Below, one piece after another: positions 1,526 through 3,263 of a DNA stretch of 29,493 bases. This DNA comes from a virus. Every line of letters begins with the position of its first letter. The stretch's first letter is position 1. The position numbers and the translations under genes are program-made. Below the pieces are notes generated by a model that was not told the DNA's origin, ran no database searches, and saw nothing but the letters and a program-made list of their open reading frames with translations. Location of the stretch: IMG/VR virus record IMGVR_UViG_3300032331_003703, positions 1 through 29,493 of that record. One strand, 5' to 3'.

Positions 1526-1650
1526 GCCCCGCTCGCGAGGGGATCGTAAAACACGGGCTGCATACCGGATGAACTTTCAGTTGCACACTGCTCCCGTTCT
1601 CATCGTATAGGAGATAGAGTTAGCCTTCTCGACGTCGTTTAAAAAGGCAA
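1526..1650 (+). other. GC-rich structured non-coding stretch
   Basis: No gene is supported in these 125 bases, which are clearly more GC-rich than their surroundings. Self-complementary pieces are CCCC (1527-1530) with GGGG (1539-1542), ACGGG (1553-1557) with CCCGT (1593-1597) enclosing AACT-TTC-AGTT, and GCCTT (1623-1627) with AAGGC (1644-1648) enclosing CGACGTCG. It sits just before the tRNA genes and could be part of their precursor or a separate small RNA. Confidence 0.35.
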
Positions 1651-1718
1651 TGTTGGATAGTTTAATGGAGTAAAACATCTGCACTGCAGAAGATGCAAGT
1701 TTGAGTCTTGCCCAACAA
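1651..1718 (+). tRNA. tRNA-like gene lacking a normal anticodon loop (A)
   Basis: Acceptor TGTTGG pairs with CCAACA (1712-1717). D-arm GTTT-AATGGAGTA-AAAC lies at 1660-1676. T-arm GCAAG-TTTGAGT-CTTGC lies at 1695-1711, with discriminator A1718. Where the anticodon arm belongs, a perfect 5-pair stem TCTGC/GCAGA (1678-1690) closes on only three bases (ACT), followed by a normal 4-base variable region. One acceptor base (position 66) is also missing. No CCA is encoded. The body resembles phage glutamine or glycine type tRNAs, but no amino acid can be assigned. It may be a decayed gene or a non-decoding tRNA-like RNA. An alternative fold with CATCT/AGATG and a 10-base loop leaves no variable region. 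Confidence 0.55.
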
Positions 1719-1722
1719 CAAT

Positions 1723-1792
1723 AGTCAGGTGGCGTAATTGGTAACGCCTTATATTGGTATAGGAGATATAGGTTCGAATCCTGTCCTGACTA
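1723..1792 (+). tRNA. tRNA-like gene with undersized anticodon loop (B)
   Basis: Acceptor AGTCAGG pairs fully with CCTGACT (1785-1791), discriminator A1792. D-arm is GCGT-AATTGGTA-ACGC (1732-1747). T-arm is ATAGG-TTCGAAT-CCTGT (1768-1784). All three arms are canonical. The anticodon arm is TTATA-TTGG-TATAG (1749-1762): five pairs on a 4-base loop, then a 5-base variable region. Three loop bases are missing relative to a decoding tRNA. An alternative pairing CTTAT/ATAGG leaves a 6-base loop ATTGGT. No standard 7-base loop can be formed, so no amino acid is assigned. It starts four bases after gene A. Confidence 0.6.
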
Positions 1793-2825: not shown

Positions 2826-3043
2826 CAATAAGTAAGAGATACTTAGCAGTCTTTGGTCCAAGACTCATTTAACAATGGACTCGCTCGAGCCGGACAGCGG
2901 AATGCCGACTCTTAGGGTAAAAGGTAGTAATCACGCTCCTCCTTCGTAGTGTGACTTTTTTCATAGGGGATGCCCAGCAGGTTTTTATCAATAGGAAAAA
3001 AACCGATATAACTACTCATCTGTAATCTCAAGATGGGGAATAC
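2826..3043 (+). other. Structured non-coding spacer inside the tRNA island
   Basis: No gene is supported in these 218 bases. Two nested arrangements are visible. TAAGAG (2833-2838) pairs with CTCTTA (2909-2914) around three hairpins: AGTCTT/AAGACT with a 6-base loop, GGACTC-GCTC-GAGCC, and CGG-AATG-CCG. Then GTAGT (2924-2928) can pair with ACTAC (3011-3015) around TCACGCT/AGTGTGA (followed by six Ts, so possibly a terminator), GGG-GATG-CCC and GGTTTTT/AAAAACC. Both resemble cloverleaf layouts, but T-loop consensus bases are absent. These may be decayed tRNAs or a separate small RNA. Confidence 0.35.
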
Positions 3044-3141
3044 ACTCAAGTGGCGGAAGCGAGATTGTTGCAACAATCCGATAGTAGACGCTAAGGTTTC
3101 GAGTTCGAAAGAACATATTGGTGCAAGTCCAATCTTGGGTA
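3044..3141 (+). tRNA. Rearranged Leu-type tRNA-like gene with hairpin in D-loop
   Basis: Acceptor ACTCAAG pairs with CTTGGGT (3134-3140), and T-arm ATTGG-TGCAAGT-CCAAT (3117-3133) is intact. TGGCGGAA at 3051-3058 and TAGACGC at 3085-3091 are the two ends of a leucine-type D-arm, but a perfect 16-base palindrome, GATTGTTG/CAACAATC (3063-3078), lies between them. A long-type variable arm, GTTC-GAAA-GAAC (3103-3114), is possible. Then only 11 bases (3092-3102) remain for the anticodon arm. The other reading is TTTCG-AGTT-CGAAA (3097-3110), again with a 4-base loop. It could be a broken tRNA-Leu or a non-decoding RNA. No anticodon is assigned. Confidence 0.45.
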
Positions 3142-3146
3142 CTAAT

Positions 3147-3219
3147 GCGCTTGTGGCTAAATGGTTAAAGCAGCACACTCATAATGTGAAGACTATAGGT
3201 TCGAATCCTATCAGGCGCA
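3147..3219 (+). tRNA. tRNA with CAT anticodon (Met or Ile2)
   Basis: Acceptor GCGCTTG/CAGGCGC (3212-3218) with one G-T pair, D-arm GCTA-AATGGTTA-AAGC, anticodon stem GCACA/TGTGA with a mismatch at the base, 7-base loop CTCATAA (anticodon 3180-3182), 5-base variable region, T-arm ATAGG-TTCGAAT-CCTAT, discriminator A3219, no encoded CCA. All arms have standard sizes. A CAT anticodon can be elongator Met, or Ile if the C is changed to lysidine. Together with the gene at 2752 the island holds two such tRNAs, which would fit different roles. Confidence 0.9.
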
Positions 3220-3263
3220 CAAAAGTAAGTTCTTTGAAATAAAAATTATAAGGAGAAAAAATT

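Follow-up and report, generated by a model that had tools for sequence, protein, structure and literature searches.

Candidate non-decoding RNAs with a tRNA body and exchangeable domains in a lake phage and its relatives

The closest known RNA to the genes described here is stable RNA C of phage T4 (species 1 RNA, rnaC; NC_000866.4, positions 70908-71046; L288:1409-1547), which is annotated as a small stable RNA and whose function, to our knowledge, is unexplained. Transfer-messenger RNA (tmRNA) joins an acceptor stem and a T arm to an insert at the site of the anticodon arm, and is marked by a G3-U70 alanine signal, a tag reading frame, pseudoknots and the absence of a D stem. Engineered tRNA scaffolds in which the anticodon arm has been replaced yield stable RNAs in E. 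coli (PMC3753655). GOLLD and ROOL are structured phage RNAs of unexplained function that are often located near tRNA islands and form oligomers through kissing loops (PMC12286853). The present analysis concerns a lake phage with T4-like baseplate genes, represented by IMG/VR record IMGVR_UViG_3300032331_003703, whose 29,493 bases are referred to throughout as the window. This sequence holds three conserved, predicted RNA genes that have a tRNA body and lack the part that reads the code: gene A (1651-1718), gene B (1723-1792) and element C (3044-3140), all on the plus strand.

Genes A and B are separated by four bases and belong to the same cluster as two normal tRNAs. A decoding tRNA presents a 7-nucleotide loop on a 5-base-pair anticodon stem. 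In gene A the stem strands TCTGC (1678-1682) and GCAGA (1686-1690) close on the three bases ACT (1683-1685), and the perfect 5-pair stem that an earlier note on this DNA had described is indeed present. The same note had called the other arms good, which does not fully hold: the acceptor has only six base pairs (TGTTGG/CCAACA, with A7 unpaired), and the T loop, TTTGAGT, carries a U where C56 is usual. In gene B, CTTATA (1748-1753) and TATAGG (1758-1763) flank a TTGG loop (1754-1757). The loop is as the note reported it, but the stem has six pairs rather than five if all of them close; alternatively, the last A-T pair is open and a 5-base-pair stem carries the 6-nucleotide loop ATTGGT. The shortening of both loops is thus confirmed, to three nucleotides in gene A and to four (or six) in gene B, and in element C about 11 nucleotides stand in for the whole arm. 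Both genes are recognized as tRNAs by cmscan (41.1 bits for gene A and 50.3 bits for gene B, gathering cut-off 29) in alignments that omit the anticodon loop. ARAGORN makes no call for gene A and calls gene B a tRNA with a 2-base 'anticodon'. The elbow signature of decoding tRNAs (U8, G18G19 and the T loop) is present in gene B and its family. Gene B has a tRNA-Leu-like 5' half with the D arm, and its 3' half is a near-invariant 23-mer; its unconstrained minimum-energy fold uses a competing pairing of the T arm.

Scanning the viral collection with the D arm of gene A recovered three contigs (L285, L286 and L287), each with a full-length, identical gene A that includes the 3-nucleotide loop, so that the gene is without variation across four contigs including the window. 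In all three it lies 33 bases 3' of the same signature of an upstream element, nc1, and the sequence beyond differs; in L285, nc1 has diverged beside an unchanged gene A. A scan for the gene B hairpin found an identical copy in L284 (the contig of L023) and a variant, CCCATA-TTGG-TATGGG, in L233 and L283. Compared to gene B, this variant has C-G in place of T-A at one pair, a two-sided change, and C-G in place of T-G at another, a one-sided change, and the TTGG loop is the same; the compensatory stem changes and constant loop length that the earlier note proposed to look for both occur here. No relative of A or B with a normal 7-base loop came from these two scans. The suggestion that loop loss may be selected gains support from the invariance of gene A, the compensatory changes in the gene B stem, and the existence of a whole family of relatives without decoding loops.

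Members of the gene B family share a constant tRNA body, consisting of an AGTCAGG/CCTGACT acceptor, a tRNA-Leu-like D arm and a T arm, with a domain at the site of the anticodon and variable arms. IMG/VR was scanned for this pattern, which gives a lower bound on the family; across all the loci fetched there are at least 251 copies (218 distinct sequences) and as many as seven per locus at 165 loci, a few of which lie on the same contig in a collection whose contigs are redundant. On the 5' side, which the search left free, U8 is present in 97% of copies, the D-loop GG in 93% (54% in shuffles) and a 3-base-pair D stem in 81% (30% in shuffles). Copies lie mainly outside protein-coding sequence: the midpoint falls within an open reading frame (ORF) in 37 of 229, compared to an ORF coverage of 71%. 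In the window itself, none of 49 ORFs of at least 60 amino acids overlaps positions 1526-2157. Scanning the loci for tRNA bodies, without regard to the loop, gave 367 distinct bodies with a normal loop and 150 without one. Among these 150, the acceptor is AGTCAGG in 112 and close to it in about 15 more; the locus set was partly fetched by the AGTCAGG 3' end, and these numbers thus describe an association and not a frequency. A few AGTCAGG bodies of other phages do have a normal loop, with a UUU anticodon in L162 and L202; normal loops were called loosely and a few bodies scored in this way are doubtful. The AGTCAGG 3' end is also found, in 24 distinct sequences, among the window and 155 loci that were fetched by protein similarity alone.

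Within the sequences searched, the AGTCAGG family is specific to phages. A body of matching length is present in none of 395 Bacteroidota genomes, and no host tRNA shares the AGTCAGG acceptor in the three genomes reached via the loci. The pattern occurs in nine stretches of bacterial genome records, eight of them in contigs of metagenome-assembled genomes (MAGs). One named phage, Podoviridae sp. ctfjg026 (MW202828.1), has a family copy at an unannotated site. Two further matches were set aside: one in S-TIP37, which we read as a fragment of a host tRNA-Leu beside an integrase, and one in Hymenobacter, which is missing the AGTCAGG 5' strand. Our Rfam scan (cmscan, E<=1), which covered the first 5 kb of the window and 13 relatives, yielded no family that fits the AGTCAGG copies in the loci scanned. 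No published description came up in literature searches confined to an open-access library that lacks most subscription journals. The family is apparently both large and undescribed.

The domains mounted between the arms range from 16 to 139 nucleotides, with a median of 50; the same site holds about 22 nucleotides in class I tRNAs and about 35 in class II tRNAs. Clustering sorts them into about 130 groups that look unrelated to one another, and most groups have a single member. For one domain type, which is also the one in ctfjg026, all contigs with its 3' signature were fetched and 14 distinct copies compared. The acceptor is paired in all 14 despite occurring as AGTCAGG, AGTGCAG, AACAGAG or AGTTAGG, an inner 7-base-pair helix exists in C-G, U-A and G-C versions, and a 4-base-pair hairpin is paired in every copy. 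The T arm of this set was imposed by the search and does not count as evidence. Paired changes of a similar kind are visible by eye in smaller domain groups. Domains and acceptors have also been exchanged: the 14-copy domain occurs on acceptors AGTCAGG, AGTGCAG and AACAGAG, with both acceptor strands changed each time, and L286 and L287 have a common domain on AGTCAGG and AACACAG, respectively. In some copies, as in element C, extra sequence is inserted into the D loop. A second hairpin resembling a T arm lies inside a few domains (L191, L180, L263 and L278; 4 of 131 group representatives and none in shuffles).

The 7-nucleotide loop of the 14-copy domain type contains a self-complementary hexamer in 12 of the 14 copies (five versions: CTGCAG, CTCGAG, TGTACA, TAGCTA and CTGCGG). 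Such a sequence cannot pair with itself inside one hairpin, and copies of this type may therefore form kissing dimers. Palindromic loops were rejected as a general feature of the domains. Palindromes are less frequent than in shuffles (61 versus 102) and palindromic hairpin loops about equally so (17 versus 18.4), and for this reason dimerization is proposed only for this domain type and for element C.

Element C likewise has a Leu-like body, in which a 4-base-pair variable arm ends in a tetraloop that is GAAA in the window. It is found in at least 25 relatives or loci. Across 18 distinct sequences and 30 pairs, 95.2% of cells are paired, compared to at most 48% in slid controls, and 17 of the 30 pairs have changed on both sides, compared to 7.3 in shuffles. 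A short helix modelled at the site of the anticodon arm is weakly supported, with 72% of cells paired. The D loop carries a palindromic hairpin whose centre is self-complementary in its main versions (CCATGG, TTGCAA, ATGCAT and CCGCGG), and we propose that element C might dimerize through it.

T4 rnaC resembles the AGTCAGG family in that it lies within a phage tRNA cluster and that its T arm (CCGGG-TTCGAAT-CCCGG) and acceptor-like ends enclose a large domain that is not tRNA-like. Its T stem and one acceptor pair covary in T-even relatives; ZX14, Moon and VPA32 carry compensatory changes. It differs in lacking a canonical D arm, in having two U-U mismatches in the acceptor-like stem and in carrying a single conserved domain, for which comparison by eye revealed no sequence kinship to those domains of the family that were inspected. 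When rnaC was searched by blastn against named phages, 718 records came back, most of them bearing names of enterobacterial phages. The likeness to tmRNA extends to the acceptor stem, the T arm and the position of the insert. However, the family has a D arm and U3-A70 where tmRNA has G3-U70, most of its inserts could not accommodate a tag frame and pseudoknots, and the Rfam scan assigned no member to tmRNA in either the first 5 kb of the window or the 13 relatives. Engineered scaffolds keep the acceptor, T and D arms and hold their cargo at the anticodon loop (PMC3753655); they are artificial, and the family in phages would be their equivalent in nature. GOLLD and ROOL are far larger and have no tRNA body, and their Rfam models match nothing in the first 5 kb of the window. 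Elsewhere, a GOLLD RNA (L184:1477-1884; 298.8 bits) and a freshwater-1 RNA just under its cut-off (L171:4124-4186; 70.1 bits, cut-off 72) lie near AGTCAGG bodies. As for an intron or ribozyme seated in the anticodon loop, whether of group I or another known kind, the first 5 kb of the window and the 13 relatives gave no Rfam match at E<=1, and the short length of gene B leaves no room for one.

We consider it probable that genes A and B are non-decoding RNAs on a tRNA body, rather than tRNAs that have lost a loop, and that their function resides in the swapped domain. This proposal builds on the observed architecture, conservation, covariation, exchange of domains and acceptors, the position of most copies outside ORFs and the lack of a loop able to decode. 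The acceptor stem, the T arm and usually the D arm would form a tRNA elbow, which would let host tRNA-processing enzymes cut the RNA from the transcript of the tRNA cluster and would protect it from degradation. In place of the anticodon arm there is another RNA domain, a short hairpin in genes A and B and up to 139 nucleotides elsewhere. This domain would be the active part and, during infection, would most likely bind some factor of the host or the phage; its targets, at a guess, may be defence or other host factors. A broader form of the proposal, which we hold only tentatively, is that of a natural modular tRNA scaffold. More than 100 unrelated domains would have been mounted and exchanged on one body, yielding small RNA effectors as varied as the anti-defence proteins of phages, some of them dimeric by virtue of self-complementary loops.

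Several observations weigh against this proposal. The constancy of the T arm and acceptor is partly built into the searches. By folding energy, the domains do not stand out clearly from control segments (mean z -0.54 versus -0.38). Crossing helices are stronger than in shuffles (10.8 versus 5.6), and some domains look pseudoknotted, yet no more than 21% of domains individually exceed the shuffles made from them in this respect. Finally, the domains have no common motif or partner; a search for shared motifs brought out only pieces of D arms, which come from copies with D-loop insertions.

Among the alternatives, the one that fares best, although we regard it as unlikely, is that these RNAs are decoys: tRNA mimics that occupy or exhaust host proteins that bind or cut tRNAs, and that anticodon nucleases cannot cleave for want of an anticodon loop. 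Retention of the elbow and stems without the loop is consistent with such a role, as is the restriction of the family to phages within the sequences searched. A decoy would have no use for a long conserved domain, yet the domain is the conserved part in several groups, and neither decoys nor nuclease-immune RNAs, both of which the earlier note had put forward, explain why the arm is usually replaced by a longer, conserved and structured domain. A further point against decoys, from a test of little power, is that just 4 of the 15 long contigs yielded a T4-type RNA ligase.

A charged but non-decoding tRNA has a slightly lower probability. Leu-like bodies would be leucylated by the host leucyl-tRNA synthetase (LeuRS) and serve as an amino-acid sink or as a donor off the ribosome. 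E. coli LeuRS requires A73 and contacts between the D and T loops, and not the anticodon or variable arm; the anticodon arm is unnecessary for leucine charging and required for editing (PMC9976931). The family has the Leu-type D arm, the GG and mostly A73, as this enzyme would need. However, the search pattern itself included A73, position 73 is G in some copies and, in a relative in L287, C on a different acceptor, and gene A is not Leu-like.

Somewhat less probable again are antisense guides, whose swapped domain would pair with phage or host transcripts and whose body would merely stabilize the RNA. The diversity of the domains and their poor folding by energy are what such guides would predict. 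Nevertheless, the longest complement to the surrounding locus is just as long for shuffled domains (9.91 versus 9.94), a comparison that covered the locus flanks only, and several domains keep helices by paired change. An origin of genes A and B by decay of tRNA genes or by faulty assembly is very improbable and is rejected, since the irregular acceptor and T loop of gene A are outweighed by its letter-identical copies in three further contigs with different flanks, by the compensatory changes in the gene B stem and by the paired changes in element C and other domains.

The non-decoding genes have conserved neighbours. Upstream of gene A is nc1 (1526-1650, plus strand), a structured element that was aligned in 17 loci. 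It consists of a CCCC..GGGG hairpin, ATCGTAAAACAC, an exchangeable middle hairpin that exists in two unrelated versions, and TTCTCATCGTATAGGAGATAGAGTTAGCCTT..AAAAAGGCAA. Of 19 loci with nc1, 18 have gene A or a body of the AGTCAGG type no more than 154 nucleotides further on. In L285 (4867-4995) and in L287 an unrelated upstream gene adjoins the pair, and nc1 with gene A may therefore be a mobile or exchangeable cassette. The two normal tRNAs (2752-2826 and 3147-3220, plus strand) both have a CAT anticodon and are found by ARAGORN and cmscan, the second with 70.6 bits. Immediately 3' of the first is nc2 (2827-3040, plus strand), a conserved structured RNA of about 215 nucleotides for which RNAalifold predicts 36 consensus pairs from 16 sequences, 11 of them compensatory. 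Its 5' part is pseudoknot-like, and many related phages have it 3' of a tRNA or of element C. Neither nc1 nor nc2 matched an Rfam family in the scan described above. At the same site, the window's close relatives have one or a few tRNA genes only, and other related phages (L032, L034, L053, L079 and L088) have near-complete sets of 21 to 26. The gp6-like protein of the window shares 48% identity with its counterpart in Flavobacterium phage immuto and 46% with the one in Microcystis phage Mel-JY01. Such protein similarity and the titles of MAGs point to Bacteroidota as the probable host, with other phyla named in some of the titles.

If the proposal is correct, many phage genes that are skipped by annotation or called odd or pseudo tRNAs would make up a large structured-RNA family with swappable domains. 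The 50-year-old question of T4 stable RNA C would become testable by comparison, and RNA biology would gain a natural tRNA scaffold.
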